This document shows positions 1,607 through 18,047 of a stretch of DNA of 64,000 nucleotides, piece by piece (positions within the stretch are counted from its first letter, which is position 1; each line of letters opens with the position of its first letter). Made by a program: the position numbers and the translations under genes. The notes beneath the pieces were generated by a model that saw only the letters and a list, made by a program, of their open reading frames with translations, ran no database searches and was not told the DNA's origin. This DNA comes from Clostridium beijerinckii HUN142 (GTDB lineage Bacteria; Bacillota; Clostridia; Clostridiales; Clostridiaceae), in assembly GCF_000621745.1 (NCBI RefSeq), contig NZ_KK211339.1:99803-163802 (forward strand), given 5' to 3'.

Positions 1607-1979
1607 ACAGACCTCCTTATGATAATCAGATAAAATTATTTTACTACTATATGCAGTGGAAAAGATAAAATTATATCTACATCTAGTATATATGGTTAAT
1701 TTATATATATCTTCAGTGGCGACGTATAAAAATGAAAAATTTTATCCGATACCTAGCATGTGAAGATTATTTTACAAGAGCAAATTAGGATAATGAAATA
1801 GCAGAAACTTTAAATGTAGAACTATATGTGGAAATTCATCTTTATGGAAGTTGTAGATAATAATCCATATATGGATAAATACTTAAAAATTGATTTAAAA
1901 TACTATTTAACATTATTCTCATATTTGGTAAAATACTACATATAAGTTGAAATAGTTTTTAGATATATATAGGAGAATT
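1607..1979. other. Gene-poor stretch with faint coding traces
   Basis: No intact gene is seen. Fragments around 1760-1925 read like short pieces of coding sequence (for example DNEIAETLNVELYVEI) broken by stops, suggesting a decayed gene I cannot identify. The segment also contains the promoter region of the divergent genes on both sides; the rightward gene uses GGAGAATT just before its ATG. Confidence 0.35.
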
Positions 1980-2780
1980 ATGAAAAAGATTAAGTTTGGT
2001 AATTTTATAAAAAATATATTAACGGTATTATTAATAGTTCTTATATTTAGTGGACAAACAATTGCATTTGCAAGATCAGGAGGTGGAGGATCAGGTTCAT
2101 CTCATAGTAGTACATCTTCTTCTCACAGCAGTAGTTCATCCCATAGCAGCAGACCATTAACTAGACCATCAAAAAGGCCTACGTTTATGGAGGCAATAAT
2201 AATTATAGTGGTATTAATTAGTGCTATTATTTTTGTACCAATAATTGTTCGAAAAGTAAGATTAAATAAAAAGAAGCATACATGTATTTCAGTAATGCAG
2301 AATTTATCTAAATACGATGGCAACTGGAATTATGATAATTTAATGAAAGACATTAAGGATGCTTTTTATATGGTACAAAATGCATGGAGAGAAAGAAATC
2401 AAGATTTGGCAAAGGAATTTATGAGTGAATATTTGTATGGTAAACATAAATTTCAAACTGAGGAGATGAAGCTGTTAAAAGAGAAAAACATTCTTGAAAA
2501 TATGGTTTTAATTGATGTAATACCTATAGGTCTACAGGATTTAGGAGGAATTGATAAGGATTATATATGGGTTCATATAAAGGCGAAATGCAGAGATTAT
2601 ACAATAAATGAGGAAACTAAGAAGACAATAGAGAAAAAATCTTCAAAAAGCGATTACTTTGAAGAATATTGGAAATTTATAAGAACCGAGAAGAGATGGG
2701 TATTGGATGATATAAGACAAATGGATCAGATAACAAATTTGAATTTTTTTAGAATAGATGCATCTAATAGGTATCATTAA
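1980..2780 (+). CDS. Tim44-like domain membrane protein
   Basis: A 266-aa protein. Residues 1-31 form a signal peptide or first membrane segment ending in AFA, followed by a Gly/Ser/His-rich linker (33-58) and a second hydrophobic helix (about 70-90, EAIIIIVVLISAIIFVPIIV). The rest is a soluble Tim44-like domain (PF04280 type), recognisable from the DAFYMVQNAWRERN stretch and the C-terminal EEYWKFIRTEKRWVLDDI. The Ser/Gly linker before the transmembrane helix is typical of Clostridium and Bacillus members. Bacterial members are membrane proteins of unknown role. The gene stands alone, with a ribosome-binding site (GGAG) seven bases upstream. Confidence 0.75.
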   Translation: MKKIKFGNFIKNILTVLLIVLIFSGQTIAFARSGGGGSGSSHSSTSSSHSSSSSHSSRPLTRPSKRPTFMEAIIIIVVLISAIIFVPIIVRKVRLNKKKHTCISVMQNLSKYDGNWNYDNLMKDIKDAFYMVQNAWRERNQDLAKEFMSEYLYGKHKFQTEEMKLLKEKNILENMVLIDVIPIGLQDLGGIDKDYIWVHIKAKCRDYTINEETKKTIEKKSSKSDYFEEYWKFIRTEKRWVLDDIRQMDQITNLNFFRIDASNRYH

Positions 2781-2867
2781 AATTGCTGCAATCAGTATTT
2801 TGTAAAAATTTGAATTTTATAACTTGTTCAGCTTTTTTTATTTAGAATAAAAAATTGGAATTTTAAA

Positions 2868-2925
2868 TTAGGAGCTCTGGGGTAATAGTAGTGAGTTTAC
2901 TAACGATTTGCTAGTGGATATAAAT
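2868..2925 (+). repeat. Copy 1 of a short repeat with a covarying hairpin
   Basis: This matches 52331-52393 over about 60-85 nt. Its core is a hairpin with the fixed loop GAGTTT: TAGT-GAGTTT-ACTA here and TCGT-GAGTTT-ACGA in the other copy, so one base pair has changed on both sides. The flanking ATAG...CTA and the following ACGA-TTGCTA are also conserved. It could be an RNA element. Alternatively it may be the trace of a coding segment, since the same bases read S-x-EFTNDLL in both copies. Confidence 0.45.
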
Positions 2926-2943
2926 AACAATATTGAGCAATTA

Positions 2944-2988
2944 AAAAAACAATATTCAGTATGGTTATCGTACTGAATATTGTTTTTT
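2944..2988. terminator. Strong bidirectional terminator
   Basis: A perfect 18-bp stem with arms AAAAAACAATATTCAGTA and TACTGAATATTGTTTTTT around a 9-base loop. It lies about 20 bases past the 2868-2925 repeat, so any transcript of that repeat would end here. Confidence 0.8.
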
Positions 2989-2999
2989 AAAAGAGCACA

Positions 3000-3430
3000 A
3001 CAATCTTAACTAGCACAATAAAAGATAGTTTATCATCATATAATAATCTTTCGACTAATAATACAACAAATCACAACCTAATAATCATGGTTTGCTCCAC
3101 CAAACAACATATTTACTCAACTCAATATAACCTCACGGCTATATAAAATCAATTCAACACATTGAATAATGTTAACTCGACCTTATATAATAAGTTGGAG
3201 TACCATTATAATAGATATAAATCAACTATAATAAAACTTTTCCCCATCATATAAAATCTTATCGCCGACTAATATAACAGCCATAATATTATGACCATTA
3301 TATAATCTTTGTTCGACCCATATACACCCTAACTCAAGAGCATATATAAATCTTTGCTCAACTGTTATGTTCCTTATAATATTACTATGTGCAATTTTAG
3401 ATATAGTATACATAAAATCAAATTGCAATT
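3000..3430 (-). repeat. Degenerate tandem-repeat region
   Basis: Read on the minus strand, this A/T-rich stretch carries loosely repeated units of about 40-50 nt beginning GTYGA and containing ATTTTATAT-like cores, for example GTTGAGCAAAGATTTATAT and GTCGAACAAAGATTATATAA. A 68-aa frame at 3222-3428 contains three 15-16-aa repeats (VEQRFIY.., VEQRLYN.., VGDKILY..) but has no ribosome-binding site and is cut by stops on its 3' side. It looks like the decayed remainder of a repeat protein. I cannot name a family. Confidence 0.3.
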
Positions 3431-3847
3431 TATGGAAGTTGATGAGAACTATTTTCCTATGAAATTATTAGGAATATGCAAAATCAATCACGTAAAGAAT
3501 CATAAAGCTACAGCATATTCACTTTCACAGAGTGCTGGATGAAATTAATAACGTTAATTAAGAAAAGGTGCTAGTCTTGGTTAGATGGAGCGCTTTTTTT
3601 GCTTTTAACTTCTATGTCAAAATCAAGAAAGAGAATATTTTTAATTATTTAGTGCGGTAACTCTATAGAATACTATGAGTTATTTGTGCACAATGTCCTA
3701 TTGTATTTCAGTATCTATAAAGAAAACTCATATTTCAACTGAAATATAGTATAATGTTTGTTAGAACAAAAGAATAACAATATATTTTGTAATTATAAAT
3801 TCACAATTATTTTTACAATATATATGAAGAAAGACAGAGAGGGAAAA

Positions 3848-4627
3848 ATGAAGATTGCAGTTACTACTACAAGAGATGCAGATGAGAGTTTAAATTATAA
3901 AGCAAAAGGTGTATCTAAAGATTTAAATATATCATATATAAAAAGAGGTAATTTTAGCATAAAGGAAACAATTTTGAAAGATGGTTTTGACTATTTATTA
4001 GTAGTTGAAAGAGATAAGATTGTTATAAAGGGAGAAGATAGTGCACTGTTTTGGCATCCAAATATGTCAGAACTTAAGGTTAAATCAATAAGACAAGGAA
4101 ATAAGGAAGCTATAATAGAGGCAACAAAATTAGAAGAAGGAAATAGTATATTGGATTGTACATTAGGTCTTGCAAGTGATTCTCTTGTCTTTTCAGCAGT
4201 TGTTGGAGAAAAGGGATATGTAGTAGGAACGGAAATTAATAAGTATATAGCCTATTTAAGTAAATGTGGATTAGAAAACTATAATGGTGTTAATGGTAAA
4301 AATATAGATAATATAAAGGTTGTTAATGAATCATATGAAGATTATATTTTAAAGCAAAGAGATAATAGTTTTGATGTAGTATATTTCGATCCTATGTTTA
4401 AAGAACCAAATAGAAAGTCAACATCAATAAATTCCTTTAGGGATTTTGCAGATCACAAAGGGTTAACAAAAAATATTTTAATGGAAGCACTTAGAGTATG
4501 TTCAAAAAGAGTTGTTATTAAAGAAAGACAAGGCTCTAATGATTTTGAAAAGCTAGGAATAGAAAAATATTATGGTGGCAAAAAAAGCGGTTCAATTATT
4601 TATGGAGTAATTGAAAAAAATATATAA
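3848..4627 (+). CDS. Class I SAM-dependent methyltransferase (RsmJ-like)
   Basis: A 259-aa Rossmann methyltransferase. Motif I is ILDCTLGLASDSLVF and the post-I acidic residue is GTEIN; motif IV is DVVYFDPMFKEPN, a DPPY/DPMF-type motif typical of enzymes acting on RNA bases. The closest recognisable group is the SAM_MT_1 family of RsmJ, a 16S rRNA m2G1516 methylase. The start at 3848 is chosen because GAGAGGG lies just upstream; an in-frame ATG 30 codons earlier has no ribosome-binding site and encodes an unlikely N-terminus. Monocistronic. The exact rRNA target is inferred from family resemblance. Confidence 0.7.
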   Translation: MKIAVTTTRDADESLNYKAKGVSKDLNISYIKRGNFSIKETILKDGFDYLLVVERDKIVIKGEDSALFWHPNMSELKVKSIRQGNKEAIIEATKLEEGNSILDCTLGLASDSLVFSAVVGEKGYVVGTEINKYIAYLSKCGLENYNGVNGKNIDNIKVVNESYEDYILKQRDNSFDVVYFDPMFKEPNRKSTSINSFRDFADHKGLTKNILMEALRVCSKRVVIKERQGSNDFEKLGIEKYYGGKKSGSIIYGVIEKNI

Positions 4628-4975: not shown

Positions 4976-5049
4976 AAAAGGTCGAATGTATGGTATAATT
5001 TGTATTATATAGACGATTTTTTATATATGACCTTGATGGGGAGGACGAA

Positions 5050-8000
5050 ATGATAGATTTAAGCAACTTTGATGAGGAACAGACTAAAATAGTTCAACCA
5101 GAATTAGATAAGAGTAGTTCATCTACAGAAACCGGGGATTTTTATGTTGTGGGTATTGGAGCATCGGCTGGGGGACTGGAAGCACTGGAACAGTTTTTCG
5201 CAAACATGACACCTGCCAGTAATATAGCTTTTGTAGTAATTCAGCACTTATCTCCTGACTTTAAAAGCCTTATGCCAGAAATACTATCCAGAAAAACGGA
5301 AATGGAAGTATATCAGATAAAGAATGGAATGAAAATTTCACCGGGGTGTGTTTACCTGAACCCCCCAAAGTTTAATGTTAAAATATCACAGGGTCAGTTT
5401 TTACTTGAGGAACAAGACCCAATACACAAGATTAATCTCGCTATAAACACTTTTTTTGAATCACTAGCTGAAGATATAAATGAAAAATCCATAGGAATCA
5501 TACTTTCAGGTACAGGAAGTGATGGTACACGGGGGGCTAGGGCAATAAAGGAAGCTGGCGGTATTGTAATAGCACAAGATATTAAGACTGCAAAATTCAA
5601 CGGAATGCCTAAAAGTGTAATTGCCGCCAATATCTGCGATTTTATTTTATCTCCCTCAAGCATACCTGAAAAGTTGCTAAGATATACAAACCAATCTTCA
5701 CTGATAAATGTAATAGAGGACGAAGCGGAAACGGTTGATGAAACAGCGGATATTTTATTGCAAATTTATAATATAATTAAAAATTTGCATTCCACTGATT
5801 TCAGCCTCTATAAGCAGGGTTATGTACTGCGATGCCTTAATAGAAGGATAAGAATATGTCAAATACAAACACTAGAGGGGTATCTTTCGTACTTAAAGGA
5901 AAATCAAGAAGAGATTGAGTGTTTATACAATAGTTTATTGATAGGAGTAACAAGATTTTTTAGGGACTTCAATGCTTTTGATCTGATAAAAAATAAAGTT
6001 ATCCCTGAAATTGTTGGCAAGAAGACAGACAATGCTGTTATCAGGGTTTGGGTGGCTGGATGCTCTACTGGGGAGGAGGCATATTCACTTGCAATATTAT
6101 TTAAAGAGTATATGGACAGCATCCAAAGAAATATAAATATAAAGATTTTTGCTACAGATATTGACATTAAATCAATAGAATATGCCAGCAAGGGAATTTA
6201 TCCAGATAGTATCTCTGAAGATGTATCACTTGAACGTTTGAACCATTACTTCGTAAAAAAAGGGGACGGCTACCATGTTTCAAGACACCTTCGTGAAATG
6301 ATTATTTTTTCAAGCCATAACGTAATAAATAATCCGCCTTTTTATAAAGTTGATCTCTTAACTTGTAGAAATCTATTAATATATTTCCAACCTAATCTTC
6401 AAAAAAGGATTATTTCAACTTTTCAGTTTGCCCTTGAAACAAATGGATTTATGTTTTTAGGGACAAGTGAAACTACCGGAGAAGTGGGTAAATATTTTTC
6501 TACCTTTGATGCAAAGTGGAAAATTTATAAAAAGAAGGATATAAAGAAGCGTCCACTCATAGACGATTTTTCCGTTATATCCACAGGTATAAAGGTAATT
6601 CAGTCAAAACCTGAAGAAGATTATTTTACTCCAGTGGAAAGGAACAAGCGAGAAATGGAAGATATCAATACAATTTTAATAGAAGAATGTTTACCACCAA
6701 GTGTGCTGGTTGATGAGAATGGTAGGCTTGTACAAATTTGTGGTGATGTGGATAAATATTTGAAGGTGCCTAGGGGAACGGTATGCTATGATATTCAAAA
6801 GATGGTGCCTAAGGAGCTATCAACCGCTGTTGGAACTGCAATCAGCAAGGTTAGAAAAGAGAGAAAAACCGTTGCTTATTCAAATATTAAAGTCAGGTTA
6901 GCCCGAGAAGAAAACAACATTAATCTTGTTGTTAAACCACTGTTTACAAAGAAGAGTGGTTTACTTATTCTTGTAATATTTGAAGAAGTTAATAGTGTCG
7001 GCAGCCACAAAGACTATGTTGAAGATTTTGATACAGTAAGTGAATTGCATAGCCGTATAGCTGACTTAGAACAAGAGCTTCAGTATACCAAGGAGAGCCT
7101 TCAATCCTCCATAGAAGAGTTAGAGACTTCAAGCGAAGAGCTCCAATCAGCCAATGAGGAATTGTTGGTTTCTAACGAGGAAATGCATAGTACCAACGAA
7201 GAACTTCAATCCGTCAATGAAGAATTAATGGTTGTAAACACACAATACCAGTATAAGCTACAGGAATTGGCTGATTTAAATAACGATATGACAAATTTCT
7301 TAAATAGTACAACTATAGGTACTTTGTTTTTAGATATCAACCTACGTGTAAGGAAGTTTACACCAGCTATTGCAAAGGAAATTAATCTTATAGAACAGGA
7401 TATCGGACGCCCAATTGGCCATATAGCACATAACTTTAAAAATGAGGATTTAATTGAAATATCCCGTAATGTGATGGATAACCTAATTTCAGTTGAAAAG
7501 GAAATAAAGAGCATAAGCAATAAGTGGTATATACTAAGGTATTCTCCATTCCTTACAAATGAAAATGTTATTAAGGGTGTTGTTCTTTCTCTTGTTGATA
7601 TTACATCACGGAAGGAAGCAGAAGAAAGTCAACGTAAAAGTAAAGAAAAGTTACAGGAGGCAATTGTATTAGATCAATTGAAAGCTGATTTCTTTAGCAA
7701 CCTTTCCCATGAGCTTAGGACGCCGTTGAATGTTATTATGAGTACCTTGCAGCTTTTAGAAAGCCAAAGGAAAGCTATAGGGGATAAGGATATAGCTGAT
7801 AAGCAAGAGAAGTATTTTAATATCATGAAACAAAACTGTTACAGACAGTTAAGACTTGTAAATAATATGATTGATAGTACAAAAATTGATTCGGGTTTTT
7901 TTGAAATCTGTAAGCAGAATCATAATATTGTAGAGATTGTTGAAAATATTACCTTGTCAGTAGCAGACTATATTGAAAACAAAGGCATAGAACTGGTATT

Positions 8001-8472
8001 TGATACAGATGTAGAAGAAAAGATTACAGCCTGCGACTTAGATAGCATTGAAAGAATTATACTAAACCTTTTATCAAATGCGGTAAAGTTTAGTGACCAG
8101 GGCGGCAGTATAAATGTGGATATAAAAGATAAGGGTGAAACTATTCAAATTTCTGTAAAGGATTCGGGTATTGGTATACCAGAAGACAAACAAAAAATTA
8201 TTTTTGACCGATTTAGACAAGTAGACAAATCTCTTACTAGAAATCATGAAGGTAGCGGTATAGGACTATCACTAGTTAAATCCCTAGTGGTTATGCATGA
8301 AGGTAAAATTTCAGTTCAAAGTGAATACGGTAAAGGCACAGAGTTTCTCATTGAAATACCGGTAAAAACAGTTACAGAAGAAAATACTGCAATAAAAGCA
8401 GAAATCAAACAAGAGGGCAATGTGGAAAAGATAAATATAGAGTTTGCAGATATTTATAAATTAAAAAAATAA
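5050..8472 (+). CDS. CheB-CheR-PAS-histidine kinase fusion protein
   Basis: A 1140-aa cytoplasmic signalling protein. Residues 30-215 are a CheB methylesterase domain with the catalytic triad visible: Ser39 in GIGASAGG, His66 in IQHLSPDF, Asp158 in GTGSDGTRG. Residues 220-490 are a CheR methyltransferase (GVTRFFRDF; AGCSTGEEAYSLA; LLTCRNLLIYF). A Glu/Ser-rich coiled coil (665-740) leads to a PAS domain (745-860). A HisKA domain follows with His887 in SNLSHELRTPLN, and an HATPase domain (N box LLSNAVKFS, G1 DSGIGIPED, G2 GSGIGLSLV). There is no receiver domain, so phosphate must pass to a separate regulator. No other chemotaxis gene is adjacent. The kinase half resembles that of 43472-46204, including the C-terminal EFADIY. 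The gene has a GGGGAGGAC ribosome-binding site. Confidence 0.9.
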   Translation: MIDLSNFDEEQTKIVQPELDKSSSSTETGDFYVVGIGASAGGLEALEQFFANMTPASNIAFVVIQHLSPDFKSLMPEILSRKTEMEVYQIKNGMKISPGCVYLNPPKFNVKISQGQFLLEEQDPIHKINLAINTFFESLAEDINEKSIGIILSGTGSDGTRGARAIKEAGGIVIAQDIKTAKFNGMPKSVIAANICDFILSPSSIPEKLLRYTNQSSLINVIEDEAETVDETADILLQIYNIIKNLHSTDFSLYKQGYVLRCLNRRIRICQIQTLEGYLSYLKENQEEIECLYNSLLIGVTRFFRDFNAFDLIKNKVIPEIVGKKTDNAVIRVWVAGCSTGEEAYSLAILFKEYMDSIQRNINIKIFATDIDIKSIEYASKGIYPDSISEDVSLERLNHYFVKKGDGYHVSRHLREMIIFSSHNVINNPPFYKVDLLTCRNLLIYFQPNLQKRIISTFQFALETNGFMFLGTSETTGEVGKYFSTFDAKWKIYKKKDIKKRPLIDDFSVISTGIKVIQSKPEEDYFTPVERNKREMEDINTILIEECLPPSVLVDENGRLVQICGDVDKYLKVPRGTVCYDIQKMVPKELSTAVGTAISKVRKERKTVAYSNIKVRLAREENNINLVVKPLFTKKSGLLILVIFEEVNSVGSHKDYVEDFDTVSELHSRIADLEQELQYTKESLQSSIEELETSSEELQSANEELLVSNEEMHSTNEELQSVNEELMVVNTQYQYKLQELADLNNDMTNFLNSTTIGTLFLDINLRVRKFTPAIAKEINLIEQDIGRPIGHIAHNFKNEDLIEISRNVMDNLISVEKEIKSISNKWYILRYSPFLTNENVIKGVVLSLVDITSRKEAEESQRKSKEKLQEAIVLDQLKADFFSNLSHELRTPLNVIMSTLQLLESQRKAIGDKDIADKQEKYFNIMKQNCYRQLRLVNNMIDSTKIDSGFFEICKQNHNIVEIVENITLSVADYIENKGIELVFDTDVEEKITACDLDSIERIILNLLSNAVKFSDQGGSINVDIKDKGETIQISVKDSGIGIPEDKQKIIFDRFRQVDKSLTRNHEGSGIGLSLVKSLVVMHEGKISVQSEYGKGTEFLIEIPVKTVTEENTAIKAEIKQEGNVEKINIEFADIYKLKK

Positions 8473-8607
8473 TTACTATAGATCAACTAAAAAAATCCAG
8501 ATAGATATAAATTGATGATTGTATTAAAATAAAACTTTGGCTTTGACTATTTATCATATAAATGGTGATACTCAAAAGAAAGGACTTCAAAGAATTATTA
8601 ATGATAT

Positions 8608-8814
8608 AACCCTAACTGGATTTTGTTTAAAGCCTATACAGATACAGAGTCAGGCAAAAATATCTATAGACCTAGTTTTCAAGAAATAATCTTTGATAGT
8701 TATGAAAATTAATTTGATATTATTTTAGCTAAATAAATTAGTCGCTTTAACAGAAAGAATGTTGATTTAATTGATACAGTTAATAAACTCAGATGTTTAG
8801 GAAAGGAAGAGTAA
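8608..8814 (+). pseudogene. Serine recombinase (resolvase) remnant
   Basis: One frame reads like the middle of a serine-recombinase catalytic domain: YTDTESGKN-YRPSFQEII, then FDIILAK, stop, ISRFNRKNVDLIDTVNKL. This matches the family pattern D-x-GISG..RPxFxxM...DlIitKsisRFaRNt. Two in-frame stops (8710-8712 and 8734-8736) interrupt it, and no C-terminal DNA-binding domain follows. This is a dead fragment of a mobile element next to the accessory segment at 9.8-14.8 kb. Confidence 0.55.
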
Positions 8815-8982
8815 GCACTACAGTCCAAAGGATATAGAGGGCAGGGGGTAATTAGGCTTAGACATAAGTGAGTAGAACAGATTAACTGTGCTAAGGTAAG
8901 AAGTTTTATATGAAAGGTTTAAATAATAATTAGTTTAGTGTACAATGGGATAAATATTAATCATAGATGAGAGGAAATTGAG

Positions 8983-9174
8983 ATGAACGGAACAAAGAGA
9001 AGTAATATTAAAATAGGAGCAACGGTTTTAGTTGTTCAAAAGCAGGATCAACGTACAGGAAAATTGACAGAAGGAATAGTGGAGAAGATACTTACCAATT
9101 CATCAGAGCATCATCGTGGCATAAAAGTGATGCTTAAGAACGGTATTGTGGGCAGGGTGAAAGAGATAAAGTAA
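8983..9174 (+). CDS. ywbE: YwbE family protein
   Basis: A 63-aa protein of the YwbE/DUF2196 family: an N-terminal NIKIGATVLVVQKQDQRTGK, a TEGIVEKILT strand, and a C-terminal GIKVMLKNGIVGRVKEI. The fold is a small SH3-like beta barrel, and the function is unknown. The start is preceded by GAGAGGAAATTGAG. The family's usual length is about 60-65 aa, so this copy is intact. A truncated second copy lies at 46510-46627. Confidence 0.85.
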   Translation: MNGTKRSNIKIGATVLVVQKQDQRTGKLTEGIVEKILTNSSEHHRGIKVMLKNGIVGRVKEIK

Positions 9175-9189
9175 CAGTTATTATATTAT

Positions 9190-9583
9190 GTAACTTATGA
9201 ACAATCAATGGAAGCAGCTGCTGAATCATTAGAAGAAATTAGGGAAAGTGCTGCATGCATTATCAAAGTGCACTTTAGCATCAGAATTTTCAATTAAGTA
9301 TAAAATGAAAGACTATTCACAAATGAAGGAACTTTTACTTGAAAAATCAGTATCGGATGCTAAAAATATAAAGCACTTACAATATCAAAAGCAGCAGAAG
9401 TAACCTTAGGAGAAATTATAAACATTGATTATAGTTAAAGTGATATAAATATTTATCATAAAGATAGTGTCATATATGAAAGTAGTATGGATTGCTGTGA
9501 GTCAAGTATTCAAGCTATTGATCTAGAGGCAGAGGATTTATTTACAAGTGATACCATAACAGTTACTTGGGAAATTATTTAAT
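9190..9583 (+). pseudogene. SIMPL-domain (DUF541) protein remnant
   Basis: Fragments in changing frames match the C-terminal half of SIMPL/DUF541 proteins: FSIKYKMKDYSQMKELLLEK, then SKAAEVTLGEIINIDYS, then a final strand TSDTITVTWEII before a stop. At least one frameshift near 9370-9390 and an in-frame stop after IDYS break the frame, and no N-terminus or signal peptide is present. It is a decayed gene that ends at the terminator at 9593. Confidence 0.5.
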
Positions 9584-9627: not shown

Positions 9628-9832
9628 ATATTTAATATAAAAATCTAGAGGAAAAATATAGGTGAATTAATAAAATTTTGTAGTATAATAATGATAAACT
9701 ATTAATCGAAATTACAACTAAGTTGAAATACTAATTATATCCATAATGGGAAGTTTGAGAATGATATTAAATTTGTGTGGATGAATGGGAATGCAGTAGT
9801 ATGTGATATCAATAAATACTAGGAGGAATAGC

Positions 9833-10672
9833 ATGTCAAATTTATATTTAAACATTTATACTGAAACTATGGATTTTGTAAGTGGAGACTTTACTCCTAC
9901 TAATATAGTAAAAGTCAAAAATTATATATGTTCACTTAATAATTTTAATAACGAAAAAATAGAAGAGCTGAGAGCTTTAATTATGAGAGTGAAGGGTGAT
10001 TGGATTAGTTTTAAGTATGCCTTTTTTAATGAAACATATTATGTAGATGTATATCTTATATTTCGCAATAAAACGCTATCCGTGAATCAAGAAGAAATAG
10101 TAAAAAGTATTATTTTACAATGTAGGGAATTTTTGTTAAAGAATAAATATGGAACTATAGATATTAATATTAATAACTCAGACAAACTTTCAAAGCTACT
10201 AGAAGAAGATGGATTTATACTAAGTATTTCAGAGAATGATGGAAGTGGATTGTTAAATAATAAGGAAATAGAAAAAGTATTTAATGAAAATGATGTAAAA
10301 TATGAGGTGTTAAATATTGGAAAATCAAGCTTTGACGGAGGTGCAAGCGGAGCGGCTGAAAATTTAATTTACTTTATTATGAGTTCAGCAGCTTCAGGTG
10401 TTACTTGGGATGTTATGAAGCCTATTTTAACTGGAAACTTAGCACTTCCAATACAATCTATAACAATGAAAGTTATGGATAAATATAATTTTAATAAACT
10501 CCGAAAAATTGTAGCTGATAGGATAAGGGTGGAAGAAAGGAGTCTAATTCTGGCTGAAATGCATAAGAAGAATTCAAAATTAAATTTAGAATTCAGGGCT
10601 TCGAATAAGAAGATACATATAACTTGTGATAGCAATTACAATATTATAGATTTTAAGGTAGTGGAAGACTAG
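9833..10672 (+). CDS. Unrecognised protein upstream of the STAND NTPase gene
   Basis: I do not recognise this 279-aa protein. The start at 9833 follows a perfect AGGAGG; the longer frame from 9803 would begin before that site. Residues 1-150 are mixed alpha/beta. At about 170-200 there is a Gly/Ala-rich, fairly hydrophobic segment (FDGGASGAAENLIYFIMSSAASG) that could be a buried helical hairpin or membrane-interacting segment. The last 90 residues are basic and helical, ending in beta strands (IHITCDSNYNIIDFKVVE). It lies 113 bases before the Cap4-STAND gene on the same strand, but outside the 14-bp direct repeats that bracket that gene, so partnership is only possible. Confidence 0.55.
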   Translation: MSNLYLNIYTETMDFVSGDFTPTNIVKVKNYICSLNNFNNEKIEELRALIMRVKGDWISFKYAFFNETYYVDVYLIFRNKTLSVNQEEIVKSIILQCREFLLKNKYGTIDININNSDKLSKLLEEDGFILSISENDGSGLLNNKEIEKVFNENDVKYEVLNIGKSSFDGGASGAAENLIYFIMSSAASGVTWDVMKPILTGNLALPIQSITMKVMDKYNFNKLRKIVADRIRVEERSLILAEMHKKNSKLNLEFRASNKKIHITCDSNYNIIDFKVVED

Positions 10673-10719
10673 TTTAACTATACATTCTAGCTAGATTTGA
10701 CTTCTCTTAAAAGTAAGTT

Positions 10720-10733
10720 ATTAGGCTAATAAT
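10720..10733. repeat. Left 14-bp direct repeat flanking the Cap4-STAND gene
   Basis: ATTAGGCTAATAAT, identical to 14765-14778. It contains the palindrome ATTAG-G-CTAAT. The two copies lie 52 bases before the start and 32 bases after the stop of the 1315-aa gene. Confidence 0.6.
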
Positions 10734-10785
10734 TGGAATTTAATAAAAATAGTATAGCTTAAATAAAAAGACATGGAGGAATAAT

Positions 10786-13700
10786 ATGTGTAATTTAAAA
10801 TCGGATATTGGCGCCAAGGCAGCTTGGAAAGGGTTTTCTTCACAAACAACGTATATTGCACATAGGCTTATGAATTTAGGTGAGGATTATGATTTTTATC
10901 CTGAAAAAGTAGAAGATTTAATGATAAAAAAAGGTAATTCTATTATTGAATTGGTTCAAATTAAGAATCTTAGTAGTGACTTGGCTTTGTCAAGTTTTTC
11001 GCCTAAAGATTCAGATTCTTTTTTTAGACGCGCACTAAAAAGTAGAAAGGAAAATGAAAACATAATTTTAACAGTAATTTCATTTGGAAATATAGGACAA
11101 GAACTACAGGGATTAATAAAGAAAAATGAATCTCAAATTAAAAGCATAAAAAGTAAGTTGTTGGGATTTGATTATTCAAATGATGAGATTGAATGGATAT
11201 TATCTAATTTATCTATCATTCAAGTTGATGAAGAAAATCTAAAGAATGACATATTTAAAAAACTAGAAGAAAAAATAGAAACAATGGCAGCTCCACAAAT
11301 AGCCTTTGATACATTGATTTGTTATGTTTCTGATTTATCAAGATATGCAAAACATACATCAAAAGAAAAATGGGATAACAGAATAGATGATTTTGTAAAA
11401 GATATATCCTCAATAAATGGATTATGTGCCCAATATGGAAAAACAATTATTAAATTAACCGATTATAAAACACAAAAAACAGATGAAGATTTAATTAAAG
11501 AGTATAGAATGGGTGTAAATGCTCACCCACAGCATATACGAAATAGTTTAGATATTGTACGAAGAGACTGGTTATATAAAATACAAGATTGCTTTAAAAA
11601 TAATAATATTGTGGTTGTTAAGGGAGTTTCGGGTCAAGGGAAATCTTCATTAGCATATAGATATCTAATAGATAATTACATTGAAAACTATGTGTTTGTT
11701 ATAGAGAAACTTACTGATTCAAAACAAGCTATTGATATTGTTACAGCTTTAAGTGGATTGTCTATTAATAAGTCTGGTGATATTGCTGTTTATTTAGATG
11801 TATCACCTTATGATACTGAATGGTTATGGATAGCTGAAGAAATTAATAAACGTGGGATGAAATTGAAACTTCTTATAACTATTAGAGAAGAAGATTTTAA
11901 TCGTTCAGATATTGATTCAAATATATTCAATTCTAATATTATTGAAATTTCTTTTAATAAATTAGAAGCTGAGGAAATATTTAATGTGTACGACACGCCA
12001 TATTTTTTAAATTTTGAACAGGCTTGGGAGAAATTTGGTGAAACTGGGCCGTTTATGGAGTTTATGTATTTATTAAACCAATCAGATACCTTAAAAAACA
12101 AGCTTGAATCGCAGATAAATAGAATTATTACTAATGAGGTTAATGCTGATAGATGGTTAGACATTCTTCAAGTTATATGCTATGTTGGGCGGAATAATTT
12201 AAAAATAAATCTACAAAGATTAATTGAAAAGCTACCTTGTAATCAAAGTAGAAAAATGCTACAAGAGTTTGAGAAAGAGTATTTGGTGAAAATAAGCAAC
12301 GATTATCAATATGTTGAATGCTTACATGCAGTTAGAGCTGAAATTTTATATAGCATTATATCTAAAAATAGTATCATGAATGAAGAGAGAACTCTATTGT
12401 ATTCTATTAGTGTTGTAGATGAATTTTTCCAAGTGTTATTAGTAAAATATTTTTATAATAACAGAATAACAGATTCATTTATAAAAAAAATAACAGAAGA
12501 TGAATACTTGTCATGGACAGCTTATGCAAGTGTATTAAGCGCTCTTTTGTGGTTAGATTTATACAGATTGTATACAAATAATAAAAGAGTTTATAAAGAA
12601 GCCAATAAACTGTTTGGCGGGAATTTTGTCATGTTTACTGGAGATGCAACAGGTTATATTGAATTTGATTCTTCAAGAATTGTTAATAGCTTTGGCACGA
12701 TTAATCCAAGATTAGCTCAGAAAATGCTAGAGTTAATCAATGCATTGCCACAAAATAAAGTTGATTATTTATTAACTGATATGTTTATAAATAATATAAA
12801 GGAAAAAGTGAATAATTGTAATATTTCTTCAAATGATAATCTGTCAGAAGTTGGTTTTGTATTATTCTGGTTAGCTCAAAGGAATATTTTTATAGATAGT
12901 ATTTTGTGTAAAGATGTGATTACTAATATAGATAATTACTCAATTGATAACATTCTCGACTTTCTTGTAGGAATTCAAATGCAAAACAAAATAGAAATAT
13001 ATGAAAGCGTTGCTAAATATTTAATGCCTGAAATTTGCAAAAAATATAATATTATACGCTTAGAGATTGATGAAAAATATATTGAGGCAGATTTTATTCA
13101 AAATGCTTTTAAAGGCAATGAAGAAGAAAATCATATAGAAATGAATGAAATTGTTATGGATATTATTTGTATTATGAGAAGGCTGTTTTATAATAAACAA
13201 AGATATAGAGTAAAAGCATTAGGCACTAACCTTATGCAAGGCATTCAAACACCAGATACAGAAAAAAATATAGAGTCAAAAAACTTGCCTTTAATATGGA
13301 TTGTACAAATAAATGGATGGCTTATAAAAATTGATGATTATGAAAAAAGGACTGAAAATTGGAGTGATTTTAAAGAACTAATTGATAATGACAGAAAAAG
13401 TATTATTTACTTCTCAAAATTAATGTGTAATGGAATTGAATACTTTTATAAAAAAGGAGGGAATATTGAAAAATTTATTTCCCAAGAGTATAAGAAAGGT
13501 AATCAAGATGTAGCAACAATATCAACACGAACATATCGAACACCAAAGTGCGTTAATGACATATATGGATTAAATGTTAGCAAAAATAAAGTAAAGTTAA
13601 TTGATAGTATGCAGAATACGAATCAACAAAAAGGTAATAAGGATATTACTTCATTTATGAATAGTTATAAAATGTCATTTACTAATTTTATCAATCAAAA

Positions 13701-14733
13701 GGATGATCTTATATTGTCTAGATATAAACAAGAAGAAATAAATGAAAATGCAAGGCTTTCTTTAATTAATATTGTAGGGGCTATTTCCGATTTGTCTGAA
13801 ATGCAAAGTAAATATGCTGAAACATTTTCTAAAACTAGTAGTTATATAAATTTTAAAGAAGAATATGAGCAACTCTTATTGCTCGCCGTTATGTGGAGAT
13901 ATTTATATAACAATAAAGTTAGAAAGGAAAATTCACTTGTATATGAGTGTAAAGAAACAATCAAGCAGACTCGTAAGAAAATCAAAAACTTTTTTGATAA
14001 AATATTTGAAAAATATACAGTACAGAAATTTAATGCAATAGATGATAAATTATATATTTCTTTAGATTTAGCACTAGTTGATGACTTTTGTGAGAGATTA
14101 TTTTCTCAATTCAAAAATGAGTTTCCAGAAATGAAGAATTTATCTGTTGATAGTTTATTTATGAATGAGTATGCTCAAAAAATCATTATTACAATACCTT
14201 TGTATGAAGACATAATTATTGGTGGTTTTAAAATAGAACTTAAAAATTTAATAGTGTGTGAAGAAATAGAAAAATTTATGATTTATAGACAACCGCTTGA
14301 TAAAAATGAAATCGATGAAATTAACAATCATCCGGTAGATGAAAACAACACACTTTACAATGCATACAGAGTTATTGGAAATTTAAGTGCACTACCACTG
14401 TTTTATAATCATACTACTTCTGTAATGAAATATATTAAATCATATAGTAAGGGGATATTGATACAAGACGATGTTTTCTTTAATTGGTGTGATGACGGGG
14501 CAAAATTTCATTGTTCAGTTATTGAAGATATTATAAATTCCTTCAAAAAACTTAATGATGTGATACCAGAGGAGCTATATGAGACTTATCAAATAATTAT
14601 GGCATTATTGAATGATTATAAAGAGGCAAGTTTGGACATTGTTAAGGTTGATGATATTGGTCAAATGAATGAAGTTATGGGAAAAATTAATGAGAGTATT
14701 ATCTCTTTTTTTGATAAGTGCAATTTTGCATAG
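10786..14733 (+). CDS. Cap4/DUF4297-like nuclease fused to STAND NTPase (putative anti-phage protein)
   Basis: A 1315-aa protein. Residues 1-200 resemble the Cap4/DUF4297 dsDNA endonuclease: an AAWKGFSSQ opening, then VEDLMI with Asp44 and ELVQIKN with Gln58 and Lys60, a PD-(D/E)xK-type D...QxK core. A STAND-like NTPase follows, with Walker A GVSGQGKSS (280-288, Lys286), Walker B DIAVYLD (332-338) and a sensor motif LLITIREEDF at about 365. The remaining ~850 residues are mainly helical with no recognised repeat, the position of the ligand-sensing region in Avs-type proteins. Family knowledge: such fusions act as phage-protein sensors that degrade DNA when activated. This role is inferred here. 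GGAGGAAT precedes the ATG. The gene is A/T-richer than its neighbours and flanked by 14-bp direct repeats, which suggests transfer. Confidence 0.75.
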   Translation: MCNLKSDIGAKAAWKGFSSQTTYIAHRLMNLGEDYDFYPEKVEDLMIKKGNSIIELVQIKNLSSDLALSSFSPKDSDSFFRRALKSRKENENIILTVISFGNIGQELQGLIKKNESQIKSIKSKLLGFDYSNDEIEWILSNLSIIQVDEENLKNDIFKKLEEKIETMAAPQIAFDTLICYVSDLSRYAKHTSKEKWDNRIDDFVKDISSINGLCAQYGKTIIKLTDYKTQKTDEDLIKEYRMGVNAHPQHIRNSLDIVRRDWLYKIQDCFKNNNIVVVKGVSGQGKSSLAYRYLIDNYIENYVFVIEKLTDSKQAIDIVTALSGLSINKSGDIAVYLDVSPYDTEWLWIAEEINKRGMKLKLLITIREEDFNRSDIDSNIFNSNIIEISFNKLEAEEIFNVYDTPYFLNFEQAWEKFGETGPFMEFMYLLNQSDTLKNKLESQINRIITNEVNADRWLDILQVICYVGRNNLKINLQRLIEKLPCNQSRKMLQEFEKEYLVKISNDYQYVECLHAVRAEILYSIISKNSIMNEERTLLYSISVVDEFFQVLLVKYFYNNRITDSFIKKITEDEYLSWTAYASVLSALLWLDLYRLYTNNKRVYKEANKLFGGNFVMFTGDATGYIEFDSSRIVNSFGTINPRLAQKMLELINALPQNKVDYLLTDMFINNIKEKVNNCNISSNDNLSEVGFVLFWLAQRNIFIDSILCKDVITNIDNYSIDNILDFLVGIQMQNKIEIYESVAKYLMPEICKKYNIIRLEIDEKYIEADFIQNAFKGNEEENHIEMNEIVMDIICIMRRLFYNKQRYRVKALGTNLMQGIQTPDTEKNIESKNLPLIWIVQINGWLIKIDDYEKRTENWSDFKELIDNDRKSIIYFSKLMCNGIEYFYKKGGNIEKFISQEYKKGNQDVATISTRTYRTPKCVNDIYGLNVSKNKVKLIDSMQNTNQQKGNKDITSFMNSYKMSFTNFINQKDDLILSRYKQEEINENARLSLINIVGAISDLSEMQSKYAETFSKTSSYINFKEEYEQLLLLAVMWRYLYNNKVRKENSLVYECKETIKQTRKKIKNFFDKIFEKYTVQKFNAIDDKLYISLDLALVDDFCERLFSQFKNEFPEMKNLSVDSLFMNEYAQKIIITIPLYEDIIIGGFKIELKNLIVCEEIEKFMIYRQPLDKNEIDEINNHPVDENNTLYNAYRVIGNLSALPLFYNHTTSVMKYIKSYSKGILIQDDVFFNWCDDGAKFHCSVIEDIINSFKKLNDVIPEELYETYQIIMALLNDYKEASLDIVKVDDIGQMNEVMGKINESIISFFDKCNFA

Positions 14734-14764
14734 TGTGATATTTAACTTCCGATTATCAATACCC

Positions 14765-14778
14765 ATTAGGCTAATAAT
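14765..14778. repeat. Right 14-bp direct repeat flanking the Cap4-STAND gene
   Basis: ATTAGGCTAATAAT, the second identical copy (see 10720-10733). Together they delimit about 4.06 kb holding a single gene. Confidence 0.6.
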
Positions 14779-14933
14779 ACGAAGATGAGATTTGGAGTGG
14801 CAAATAAAAATTGTTCTTTGAACATTGATTAGTATAGTATTTTAAAAATATGTTATGAGGATTAATTGAAAGATAAATTATAATTTGTTTTGATAAAATA
14901 AACCTAGCATTGTAATAAATAAGGAGAAAAAAT

Positions 14934-15329
14934 TTGAATAAATATACACGAAAGGATTTATCAGAATTATTTAATATAGGAAAAGAAACTTTGAGATATT
15001 ATGAAAGTATAAATTTGATACCCAATCCAATCAGGAATGAAAGTGGTTATAGAGTTTATTCAGAGGAAGATGTATTAAGAATTAAATTTATTGTTCAAAT
15101 GAAAAATTATGGATTTAGCTTAAGAGAAATATCTAATCTGATTAAAATAGTCAGTAATGAAAAATGTGCTCATAGAGATAGGTTAGTAGATTACATAGAT
15201 AATAAGATAACTGGAGTTGAAAATGAAATTAAAAAATTATATCAATTGATAGAGATACTAAATAAAGTAAAGGAAAATAAGCATTTAGGTGAATGTGATT
15301 TTTTAAAATCATTAATAAATAATTCTTGA
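14934..15329 (+). CDS. MerR family transcriptional regulator
   Basis: A 131-aa protein with an N-terminal winged helix typical of MerR (YTRKDLSELFNIGKETLRYYE; SGYRVYSEEDVLRIKFI) and a coiled-coil dimer helix. C-terminal cysteines (Cys82 in CAHRD and a Cys near LGECDF) could sense thiol-reactive or metal stress. The start is TTG at 14934, seven bases after AAGGAG; no nearer ATG exists. It is followed by a flavoprotein gene whose promoter has the long spacer typical of MerR targets, so it probably activates that gene. Confidence 0.85.
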   Translation: MNKYTRKDLSELFNIGKETLRYYESINLIPNPIRNESGYRVYSEEDVLRIKFIVQMKNYGFSLREISNLIKIVSNEKCAHRDRLVDYIDNKITGVENEIKKLYQLIEILNKVKENKHLGECDFLKSLINNS

Positions 15330-15414: not shown

Positions 15415-16062
15415 ATGAAGGTAATTGCTATTAATGGAAGTCCAAGAAAAGACGGGAATACAGGAATTTTGCTAAATAAGGCTCTTGAGGGAGCAGCATT
15501 AAATGGGGCAGAAACAGAAATGATTAATCTACATGATTTTACTTATAAAGGATGTAAAAGTTGTTTTGCATGTAAATTAAAAAATGGTAATAGTTATGGA
15601 CAGTGCTGTATTAATGATGAAATAAGTCCAATTCTAAAAAAAATTAAGAATGCAGATTCTATAATTCTTGGTTCTCCAATTTATTTAGGTTCAATTACAG
15701 GTGAAATGAAATCTTTTATGGAGCGATTAATTTTTCCATATCTAGTTTATGATGAAAAGTATTCTTCGCTTTTTCCTAAAAGAATTTTTGTAGGATTAAT
15801 TTATACATTTGGAGTTAATGAGCAAAAATTGGAGCAAACAAAATGGAAAGAAGCTCTTAAATATAATGAATTTTTATTTGAAAGATTTTTTGGGAAAACG
15901 GAATCGCTTTTTGTGACAGATACATATCAATTTGATGATTATTCAAAATATGTTTCAACGGCTTTTGAGGCTGACAAAAAATTAAAACGTAGGAAAGAAG
16001 TATTTCCACAAGATTGCAAAAAGGCATTTGAATTGGGAAAACGACTAATCCCAATATTATAA
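15415..16062 (+). CDS. Flavodoxin-fold NAD(P)H-dependent oxidoreductase
   Basis: A 215-aa FMN-binding reductase of the NADPH_FMN_red/flavodoxin_2 type. The N-terminal phosphate-binding loop is INGSPRKDGNTG, and the second flavin motif is ILGSPIYLGSITGEMKSFMER. A Cys cluster, CKSCFACK followed ten residues later by CC, resembles but does not match the compact CX2CX2CX4-7C motif of iron-sulfur flavoproteins. It follows the MerR gene and its long-spacer promoter, which suggests induction by a quinone, disulfide or metal stress. The physiological substrate is unknown. Confidence 0.8.
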   Translation: MKVIAINGSPRKDGNTGILLNKALEGAALNGAETEMINLHDFTYKGCKSCFACKLKNGNSYGQCCINDEISPILKKIKNADSIILGSPIYLGSITGEMKSFMERLIFPYLVYDEKYSSLFPKRIFVGLIYTFGVNEQKLEQTKWKEALKYNEFLFERFFGKTESLFVTDTYQFDDYSKYVSTAFEADKKLKRRKEVFPQDCKKAFELGKRLIPIL

Positions 16063-16275
16063 GAGTCTTAAAAAATTATAGCAAATGGATATAATTACTA
16101 AGCAATAAATTTCAATTTGTAGAGTAAGTTATAAGTGGTATCAATTGATATTAATATAATGAATTATGATATATAGAATACAAATTCACATTATTCATAT
16201 AATAATAAGTTGATGTGAGTAGAAAAAGTACTTAATAACTTAGGTGTTACTAATAAATTTAGGTTTTTAAAATAG

Positions 16276-16320
16276 GAAGGAGATTTATATATGATAAATA
16301 ACTCCTTCTTTTATATCTCT
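16276..16320. terminator. Terminator between convergent flavoprotein genes
   Basis: Arms GAAGGAG and CTCCTTC extended by TTTAT/ATAAA, followed by TTTTAT. It sits between two converging genes and can serve both. Confidence 0.55.
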
Positions 16321-16337
16321 TTAATATAAAAAATTCT

Positions 16338-16919
16338 TTATGATTGAAGAGTGGTTCCAAGGATTTTTGCTTGTTCTTGAATTTCTAAGGGGATTTTATT
16401 TTTAGAAGCTGCACCATCTAAAGTTATGCTTCCAATAATATTATATCCACCAGCTTTAAAAACTATTTCTATAGCTTGTAGAGTACCTTTACTTTGAGTT
16501 GGAAGCTGACTTATTGGAAAAGGTGCATTACATGCTGTAACCATAATAGCTTTTTTTCCATTATGTAATGGAATTGGCATTTCTAAGCCGCTCTTTGCTA
16601 TTTCCTCAAAGGCGGTGAGATTTCTATCAATAAGAATTTTTAATTGCCCAGATATATTTCCAAAGTAAGTGGGACTACCAATAACTATGGCATCAGCAGA
16701 TCGGATTTTATGCCATACATTATGTCCATCATCTTTAGAAAGAATACATTCTCTATTAGGTCTACAATTTAAACAGCTAATACAAGGTTTTATATCCAAA
16801 TCGTATGAATGTATCCATTCTACAGAATGTTGTGAATCAATTCCTTTCTCAATACATTTCATTACACCAACTGTATAGCCACTTTTTCTAGGTGATCCGT
16901 TCAAAAATAGTATATTCAT
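16338..16919 (-). CDS. Iron-sulfur flavoprotein-like NAD(P)H reductase
   Basis: A 193-aa flavodoxin-fold protein. The FMN loop is LNGSPRKSGYT, and VIGSPTYFGNISGQLKILIDR is the second flavin-binding segment. CISCLNCRPNREC fits the CX2CX2CX5C cluster motif of the iron-sulfur flavoprotein (Isf) family of anaerobes, which reduce oxygen, peroxide or other acceptors. The family is usually 180-210 aa. It is divergently transcribed from the XRE/MmyB-type regulator at 17053 across 133 bp, so that regulator is its likely controller. Confidence 0.8.
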   Translation of the reverse strand: MNILFLNGSPRKSGYTVGVMKCIEKGIDSQHSVEWIHSYDLDIKPCISCLNCRPNRECILSKDDGHNVWHKIRSADAIVIGSPTYFGNISGQLKILIDRNLTAFEEIAKSGLEMPIPLHNGKKAIMVTACNAPFPISQLPTQSKGTLQAIEIVFKAGGYNIIGSITLDGAASKNKIPLEIQEQAKILGTTLQS

Positions 16920-17052
16920 ACATGAATTTCCTCCAGTTCTATATTATAAAAGGTTAGGATATGTTATAAATATAATATAAAGTTCTATGATGATAACAGG
17001 AGCTTATTTATACTGGTATAAATTATAATAGGATAGAAATGGAAGCTTAAAT

Positions 17053-17874
17053 ATGGAGAAACAGCGATATAAAGAATTAGGAGATTTTTTGAAAACTCGA
17101 AGAGCTAAAATTTTACCATCTCAAGTAGGACTTTCAGAAGGCTTGAGACGTCGTACACCAGGTCTAAGACGGGAAGAAGTGGCTCATATTGCAGGTGTGG
17201 GATTAACTTGGTACACTTGGCTTGAACAGGGACGTGCTATACAGGTGTCGGCAGAGGTACTGGAAAGCCTATCTAGGGTACTAATGCTTAGTAAACAAGA
17301 ACGAATTCATTTATATACTTTGGCGAGGCAAGCTATTCCAACAGATATTCCTTCATGCAAAGAATTTGTTAGTCCAATTTTGCAACATGTGTTAAGTAAC
17401 TTATTATTAAGTCCGTCTTTTATCATGGATACAAGATGGAATATTATTGCATGGAATAAAGCCGCAAGTGTTGTGTTTACTGATTTTAGTAAAATAGATG
17501 TAAGTAAGAGAAATATGATTAAGATGATGTTTACATATGATGATTATAAGAAATTATTTATAGACTGGGAATCTCATGCACAAGGAATGCTAGCACGATT
17601 TCGAGCAACAACAGGAAAATGCATTGAAGAACCTTGGTTCACTAAAATTATTGAAGATCTTAAAAGAGAAAGTGACGAATTTAATTTATGGTGGACTCGA
17701 CATGATGTTCTGGGAAATAGTGAAACATATAAAAAACTCAAACATCCAATTGTGGGTGAATTGTTTTTTGAGTTCATTAGTTTTGACGTTTCAGATAATT
17801 CTAATCTAAAATTGATTGTAAATACACCCAATTCAGAATCAGATACCGATATAAAAGTAAAGTCATTGCTATAA
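17053..17874 (+). CDS. MmyB-type XRE family transcriptional regulator
   Basis: A 273-aa regulator. The N-terminal helix-turn-helix contains the diagnostic RRTPGLRREEVAHIAGVGLTWYTWLEQGR of the HTH_31/MmyB class. The C-terminal region (about 105-260) is an MmyB-like ligand-binding domain (WNIIAWNKAASVVF; EPWFTKIIEDL; LKHPIVGELFFEF). Family members commonly lie divergent to a short-chain dehydrogenase or flavin reductase and regulate it. Here the divergent gene is the Isf-like flavoprotein. The start is supported by a weak GGAAG nine bases upstream. Confidence 0.85.
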   Translation: MEKQRYKELGDFLKTRRAKILPSQVGLSEGLRRRTPGLRREEVAHIAGVGLTWYTWLEQGRAIQVSAEVLESLSRVLMLSKQERIHLYTLARQAIPTDIPSCKEFVSPILQHVLSNLLLSPSFIMDTRWNIIAWNKAASVVFTDFSKIDVSKRNMIKMMFTYDDYKKLFIDWESHAQGMLARFRATTGKCIEEPWFTKIIEDLKRESDEFNLWWTRHDVLGNSETYKKLKHPIVGELFFEFISFDVSDNSNLKLIVNTPNSESDTDIKVKSLL

Positions 17875-18047
17875 CGAGTTATATAGGTTTTAAATGTCGC
17901 ACATTAAGTATGTTTTTAATAAAATGTAACTTATCATTATTCATACAATGGGAAGTTATATAGCCAGAAAATAAACTAAATGATAGATAAGTTTAGGGTA
18001 TGTATAATAAGTGAATGCGAATGTTATTAAAATTGAATAATAGGACA

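Follow-up and report, generated by a model that had tools for sequence, protein, structure and literature searches.

Palindromic sites at the 3' ends of clostridial genes suggest an integron-like system for the capture of defence genes

We analysed a 64,000-nucleotide stretch of the Clostridium beijerinckii HUN142 genome (contig NZ_KK211339.1, positions 99,803 to 163,802; hereafter the window), in which a gene for a protein of 1315 amino acids (aa) lies between two identical 14-bp direct repeats. The 14-mer proved to be the core of an imperfect palindrome of about 46-65 bp, which recurs in related genomes behind genes that point into it, and at which homology between genomes begins or breaks off. 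We consider it probable that the window contains one integrase-less array from a clostridial gene-capture system, integron-like but not based on IntI, that carries defence genes. We are almost evenly divided, leaning slightly against, on the larger proposal that a duplicated XerC became a dedicated gene-capture recombinase with its own site family and spread anti-phage genes across genera, a second and independent origin of the integron principle, with a Cap4-STAND sensor nuclease at its sites in at least three genomes. The proposal bears on how defence genes travel in Clostridia. If the reading is correct, the 46-65 bp site would be a direct handle, in that genes ending in it would be mobile units that can be listed in any genome, many of them of unknown function. 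Gene-capture platforms would then have evolved more than once from Xer-type recombinases, and there would be a new recombinase with which to study their origin.

The open reading frame (ORF) of the 1315-aa protein is intact, and exact copies of the 14-mer ATTAGGCTAATAAT stand at 10720-10733 and 14765-14778 and at no other place in the window, as the original prediction had described. Two flanks of 113 bp shared an exact 14-mer in 139 of 100,000 Markov simulations, and two flanks of 67 bp in 31 of 100,000; in the whole 6.1 Mb genome the exact 14-mer is present five times, against once for a reversed control. The repeat is, however, only part of a longer site, and a third site related to it lies at about 16182-16220 and lacks the 14-mer. 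The downstream copy has a full left arm and scores 47.9 bits with our model of the site (R1, described below). The earlier picture of a mobile gene bracketed by a repeat was too small, since the site is dispersed, oriented and common to many different cargo genes. The main features of the locus are as follows.

10697..10745, + strand: recombination-site-like element A, with core ATTAGGCTAATAAT at 10720-10733, a diverged left arm and a weak match to model R1
10786..14733, + strand: cargo gene for a predicted Cap4-nuclease / nSTAND / helical C-terminal protein (Avs-like), 1315 aa
10786..11385, + strand: predicted Cap4-like (DUF4297) PD-(D/E)xK nuclease domain, aa 1-200, with invariant E43, D44, Q58 and K60
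11512..12375, + strand: predicted nSTAND NTPase, about aa 243-530, with Walker A around K286, R367/D370 and H514
12376..14730, + strand: C-terminal helical, sensor-like region in an AlphaFold2 (AF2) model, about aa 531-1315
14738..14795, + strand: recombination-site-like element B, with full left arm, core at 14765-14778 and right arm; a founding row of R1
16182..16220, + strand: recombination-site-like element C, a short form without the 14-mer and with the left-half motif; right end of the variable region, where homology with the relative G066 starts (16182)

We aligned eight copies to obtain the left arm and core, and then built model R1 from six sites. In the HUN142 and Clostridium ganghwense genomes R1 finds three strong sites each, the same six from which it was built, and hardly any other strong match. 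At E ≤ 1e-3 it returns 90 matches in 45 of 389 related genomes, HUN142 included. The site has the general form AACTTCYN-ATTAT-YCATA-(variable middle)-ATTAGGCT-AATAAT-GNGAAGYT, and across 49 sites the conserved block extends from -23 to +23 and reads AACTTCYC-ATTAT-YCATATACCC-ATTAGGCT-AATAAT-GNGAAGTT, with its centre just left of the core. Sites near recombinases differ in the length of the middle, and the site after the homologue of the cargo gene in G638 (G numbers denote genomes) holds about 20 extra bases. The Firmicutes dif 28-mer, allowed up to three mismatches, was found in none of six genomes, and a likeness of the site arms to dif stays unsupported.

The orientation of the sites relative to their neighbouring genes is strongly constrained on one side. 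We tabulated 60 sites (58 of the 90 R1 matches, whose regions were fetched, and two weak ones) together with ORFs of at least 100 aa; two of the tabulated sites fall inside short mechanical ORFs. All 59 sites that have an upstream ORF have it on their own strand, which against the background of co-oriented adjacent ORFs at these loci (375 of 473 pairs) has a p of about 1e-6. Downstream, 53 of the 60 sites are followed by an ORF on the same strand, six by one on the opposite strand and one by none. Since the upstream ORF always points into it, the site is most likely a 3'-terminal element of the preceding gene. In the R1 list, neighbouring sites on the same strand lie 0.8-12.5 kb apart in 11 places.

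Comparisons between species, made by blastn of the tabulated sites after orienting them, place exchanges at the site, with the right flanks staying homologous while the DNA to the left changes. G090 and G661 share the 1.9 kb to the right of the site at 96%, differ over about 0.8 kb to its left and agree again beyond; G665 carries parts of both differing stretches side by side, without a strong site between them. The shared right flank extends for 0.9 kb at 89% in G030 and G041 and for 0.69 kb at 93% in G000 and G008, and about 4.15 kb beside the site in G000 (C12:71.5 kb) are missing from G008, where homology resumes beyond. For the window locus itself, G066 shares positions 16182-17922 at 88%, as well as a 43-bp stretch at 9654-9696, and the right-hand homology begins at a site in both genomes. 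Between these shared flanks G066 has other genes, recombinase remnants and a different gene of 1679 aa.

To judge from their sequence matches, the genes that end in a site are often anti-phage genes, including AbiH, SIR2/Avs2, RADAR RdrB-like and Dodola DolB genes and an operon resembling the cyclic-oligonucleotide-based anti-phage signalling system (CBASS). Among 18 site-ended genes, picked by size and distance, seven reach at least 80 bits in PADLOC (AbiH, PDC-S15, DolB, PDC-S45, PDC-S20, RdrB and Avs2), and for three others, repeats or single domains account for matches of 33-51 bits. By Pfam, the eleven that stay below 80 bits include PhzF-like, ferredoxin-like, TIR-TPR and PIN-TPR-GreABC proteins, a PD-(D/E)XK transposase-type nuclease, an integrase ORF of IS3 insertion sequence (IS) type and two without a match. 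Elsewhere in the HUN142 genome one site follows a locus where a SIR2 gene matches the ThsA model at 136 bits, and another follows an apparent type II CBASS operon, the latter judged from a reading of the translations.

Some arrays adjoin a candidate enzyme. An ORF scan found an XerC-like tyrosine recombinase near sites in G719, G028, G651 and G069 (for G069, a fragment of the fetched stretch). A profile of this recombinase scores 571-637 bits in seven genomes and at most 343 bits with ordinary XerC, in a scan that matched 306 of the 389 genomes at E ≤ 1e-60, and in a tree the six copies sampled all fall into a single clade (100/100), set on a long branch amid the XerC sequences of Clostridia. 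G638 has an interrupted copy and G609 a probably decayed one, and the recombinases of G066 and G651 each contain one stop; nine genomes carry the recombinase, intact or decayed, two of these having decayed copies only. R1 sites occur in seven of the nine and in 38 of the 380 others (p=5e-6, a count that includes four genomes found through their sites). In all nine copies whose orientation can be read, interrupted ones included, the recombinase is directed away from the genes that lie 5' of it. A core within three mismatches lies by the recombinase start in three of nine, and other right halves were seen there by eye only. Against solved structures the enzyme scores 118 bits with XerA, 103 with XerD and 44 with IntI4. 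A true integron integrase was also sought, and none of 18 site-bearing genomes has an IntI-type protein above the 265-bit cut-off of TIGR02249.

Three smaller observations concern tyrosine recombinases near sites. In two genomes (L251:9121 and L253:4214) the recombinase ORF is followed, 59 bp after it ends, by a weak site, so the recombinase itself may lie between two sites. Another kind of tyrosine recombinase, with 26-28% identity to the XerC-like enzyme, occurs once in G719 and twice in G672 at a distance of 3-5 kb from sites (L168:10813-11460, L196:8933-9580 and L166:1461-2153). XerA-like enzymes at L175 and L195, where the family scan covered the enzymes only, were set aside; the ORFs that follow them resemble IS91-type transposases by eye.

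We propose that a unit of this system would consist of a single gene or operon and, behind it on the same strand, an imperfect palindrome of 46-65 bp, and that a tyrosine recombinase, split off from the housekeeping XerC, would recombine such sites. With the enzyme bound to both of the similar arms, strand exchange would take place close to the centre, and the gene would move along with its site. Units would move by the joining of left halves to right halves, each half-site staying with its own flank, which fits the independence of left and right halves and the positions of the breaks. The right-half sites by the recombinase start, assigned partly by eye, would be attI-like.

Among known systems integrons come closest, and chromosomal integrons store defence genes. 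In integrons, above all sedentary chromosomal ones and clusters of attC sites lacking integron-integrases (CALINs), the unit is likewise a gene with a recombination site at its 3' end, held in the same orientation along the array. The recombinase gene again diverges from the array, here with candidate half-sites near where it starts; some arrays have no integrase, and defence genes are among the cargo of both. The clostridial system differs in that its recombinase derives from XerC and not IntI, its sites lack arm covariation and have a strongly conserved core, and there are few units per place. Since no IntI-type integrase was found and the folding test was negative, we describe the system as one that would work like an integron and do not file it as a member. 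A second comparison is with pdif sites, which are 28-bp XerC/XerD cores. The pdif modules also have short sites around single genes and are moved by Xer-type recombinases, whereas the clostridial sites are 46-65 bp long with two similar arms, and some genomes have a special XerC paralogue. According to the IntegronFinder 2.0 paper (PMC9024848), integrons are very rare in Firmicutes, with one complete integron, in Limnochorda, and a few CALINs. Searches of open-access full text in PMC, PMC9024848 and PMC8138268 among it, yielded no description of this system.

A number of results weigh against the capture reading. In the window, the upstream 14-mer copy fits R1 only at the core and a few bases to its right (13.9 bits, E=0.35). 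The genes downstream of sites are also mostly on the same strand, and the difference between upstream and downstream alone has p=0.014. Neither an excised circle nor a fresh empty site turned up, the comparisons being of breakpoints between species, and in the G090/G661 and G000/G008 pairs the left edges of the variable part show no clear core, only degenerate look-alikes. Although the arms are complementary on average, they do not covary (own-arm versus shuffled pairing, z=-0.6, 57 sites), so that a folded, single-stranded reaction like that of attC is not supported, and we rejected it. The control for the cargo, in which none of 10 non-cassette window genes reached 80 bits in PADLOC, comprises just those ten genes from one window and itself contains two weak matches (27.8 and 41.5 bits). 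Because four recombinase genomes were found through their sites, the fairer association leaves these out, and is then three of five against 38 of 380 (p=0.01). Six recombinase copies came to light independently; for three of them the fetched region contains a site scoring 18 bits or more, in one case just the left half. Two recombinase genomes have no site at E ≤ 1e-3, while 38 genomes have a site and no recombinase. Finally, the profile scan found this type of recombinase in neither HUN142 nor C. ganghwense, and the arrays of both would be integrase-less.

The main rival to gene capture is a regulatory role, because the distance from a site to the following start codon is often 30-200 bp (34 of the 53 with a same-strand gene downstream). 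The palindrome would then be an operator or leader some 30-200 bp before starts, serving a shared regulator of defence and stress genes, and the cargo gene would be flanked by the repeat on account of the next gene having one too. That the core is a near-perfect dyad, and that one right arm is a promoter-like repeat found upstream of other genes, would suit such an element. However, the gene after the site is on the opposite strand at 6 of 59 sites and the gene before it at 0 of 59, several genome pairs lose homology at the site, and Rfam has no match at the window locus. Middles of variable length and a dedicated recombinase by some arrays would also be unexpected for an operator, and we regard a regulatory role as rather unlikely. 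A dispersed palindrome of the repetitive extragenic palindromic (REP) or miniature inverted-repeat transposable element (MITE) kind, which favours gene 3' ends and near which rearrangements break by coincidence, would account for a site that is small, palindromic, dispersed and intergenic, with IS91-like (by eye) and IS3-type ORFs near some copies. It would leave unexplained the single orientation to the upstream gene at 59 of 59 sites, the pairs of sites that bound single genes, the separate recombinase clade that adjoins some sites and, in a small sample, the enrichment of defence families in the cargo; to us it is decidedly unlikely.

We find it very improbable that a lone transposon or an integrated island, mobilised for instance by large serine recombinases, has the 14-mers as its ends. 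The DNA 1-4 kb downstream of the C. ganghwense homologue does encode two such recombinases, but among the ORFs of the tabulated loci a crude regular expression picked up a serine recombinase at that locus only, and dozens of unrelated genes in the 45 genomes end in this same site. As for a chance repeat around an ordinary defence-island gene, a 14-bp match between AT-rich flanks is possible, and as a full site the copy upstream of the gene is a weak one. Nevertheless, the same long site recurs beside homologues in another genus as well as across 45 of the 389 genomes, and this recurrence contradicts chance, leaving it next to no probability in our estimate.

The distribution of the cargo gene bears out the expectation that it would be scarce in relatives. 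It is the sole match within its 6.1 Mb genome, and only 6 of the 389 genomes, HUN142 included, have matches at E ≤ 1e-20. The C. ganghwense homologue is 65% identical and that of G638 59%. Just upstream of the former lies ACCCATTAGGCTAATAAT, whose core begins 102 bp before the start codon; this stretch matches the downstream copy in the window over 39 bp, and a short-form site lies downstream of the gene. The G638 homologue has a site on each side, in an array headed by the broken recombinase. For these two genes the alignment begins 20-69 bp past the upstream core and stops at the downstream site, with the exception of one 32-bp piece elsewhere. Viral, plasmid and phage collections held no close relatives of the cargo, the matches being three plasmid records and one filed as phage, all below 60% identity, and one viral contig at 28%.

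The original prediction took the protein for a fusion of a Cap4-type nuclease and a STAND NTPase. Fold and family support this, while the window protein itself falls below the Pfam cut-offs for nSTAND3 (21.8 bits, cut-off 27.2) and nSTAND_NTPase5, with other matches weaker and at chance level. It matched no PADLOC family at E ≤ 1, hence no model of a named Avs type, and nothing in NCBIfam or in a PDB sequence search. A five-row profile run over genome contigs finds at least 43 loci in Bacillota, Bacteroidota, Desulfobacterota, other phyla and archaea. In an alignment of 25 N-terminal parts, the window protein included, the predicted D...QxK and NTPase motifs are borne out, the invariant residues being, among others, E40, E43, D44, Q58, K60, S282, G283, G285, K286, R367, D370, H514 and R517. 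Pfam assigns Cap4_nuclease to 13 of the 25, nSTAND3 to 23 and nSTAND_NTPase5 to 24, and the LmuA model PDLC03848 matches 13; the window protein lies outside both the Cap4_nuclease and the LmuA matches. Aligned with the DUF4297 chain 8xav, the 25-sequence profile matches over positions 12-211 (4.5e-05).

Structure prediction pointed the same way. An AF2 model of aa 1-650 (predicted local distance difference test score, pLDDT, 84.9) has Avs3 (8dgc, 2.2e-11) as its best Foldseek match and also matches Avs4 (8dgf), LmuA and Cap4. The template modelling scores (TM-scores) are low, about 0.2-0.4, and the matches therefore back domain identity more than a common overall shape. The second fold match of this model, after Avs3, is human SAMD9 (1.3e-10). 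The model of aa 621-1315 is helical (mean pLDDT 76.4) and has no PDB fold match with E ≤ 0.001, in keeping with the earlier remark that the C-terminal region, here about 700 residues, could not be matched to a named type. By fold and family, the N-terminus is thus supported as a predicted Cap4-like nuclease joined to a STAND NTPase. The order of N-terminal nuclease, STAND and long C-terminal region is that of Avs3 and Avs4, although these are longer (PDB chains of 2028 and 1541 residues), and the window protein differs from them in having neither a PADLOC Avs match nor a PDB match for its C-terminal region. The nuclease fold is shared with Lamassu LmuA and CBASS Cap4 (DUF4297 nuclease), but is fused here to a STAND NTPase, and the immediate neighbours (the 289-aa ORF, MerR and flavin mononucleotide (FMN) reductase genes listed below) include no SMC-like LmuB or CD-NTase gene. 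An anti-phage role of the gene is likely. By homology to Avs3 and Avs4, its product would sense a phage protein via the C-terminal region, oligomerise through STAND and then cut DNA with the Cap4 nuclease.

Two loci with homologues of the cargo gene have neighbours of some note. L005 (MT836892.1), filed as phage, resembles a piece of a gut-bacterial chromosome; at 1779-4548 and 4977-8309 a pair of AAA ATPase and HNH genes, Septu-like by eye, adjoins a distant Cap4-STAND homologue, and both elements lie between two pieces of an apparent glycosyltransferase gene. At L006 (2089-16138) the C. ganghwense homologue sits amid apparent DUF4393, protein kinase, HNH and metallo-beta-lactamase-fold genes (by eye), and the two large serine recombinases near it show weak similarity to CcrA/CcrB or XisF.

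The remaining features of the window locus are the following.

9743..9760, + strand: right-half site ATAATGGGAAGTTTGAGA, preceding the first ORF of the array; possible left boundary, from a motif scan and assigned by eye
9803..10672, + strand: 289-aa ORF, probable first cassette, with a GTG start and an ATG at 9833
14779..14890, + strand: promoter-like right arm, common to other loci of the HUN142 genome (model R2, 100.3 bits)
14934..15329, + strand: MerR-family regulator (Pfam MerR_1, 6.8e-17), possibly a cassette together with the next gene
15415..16062, + strand: NADPH-dependent FMN reductase (Pfam FMN_red, 1.5e-23)

The left-flank homology in G066 reaches window position 9696. The 289-aa ORF is on the same strand as the cargo gene, ends 48 bp before the next core and has no match in Pfam, PADLOC or NCBIfam. 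Further upstream, a broken recombinase and SIMPL genes had been proposed; neither domain was matched by any of the six short frames scanned at 8537-9579, short frames being weak queries. One of the frames (8983-9171) matches DUF2196 over its full length, and one other has a weak, unrelated match. Model R2, built from the window copy and two others, has 28 matches in the HUN142 genome at E ≤ 0.1 (on contigs C2, C6, C22, C33 and others). We set this right arm aside as a part of the site; it is dispersed in the genome and probably a promoter. After element B it reads TTGTTCTTTGA..TAGTATAGTATTTT.., and it recurs in weaker form elsewhere in the genome, often before genes.

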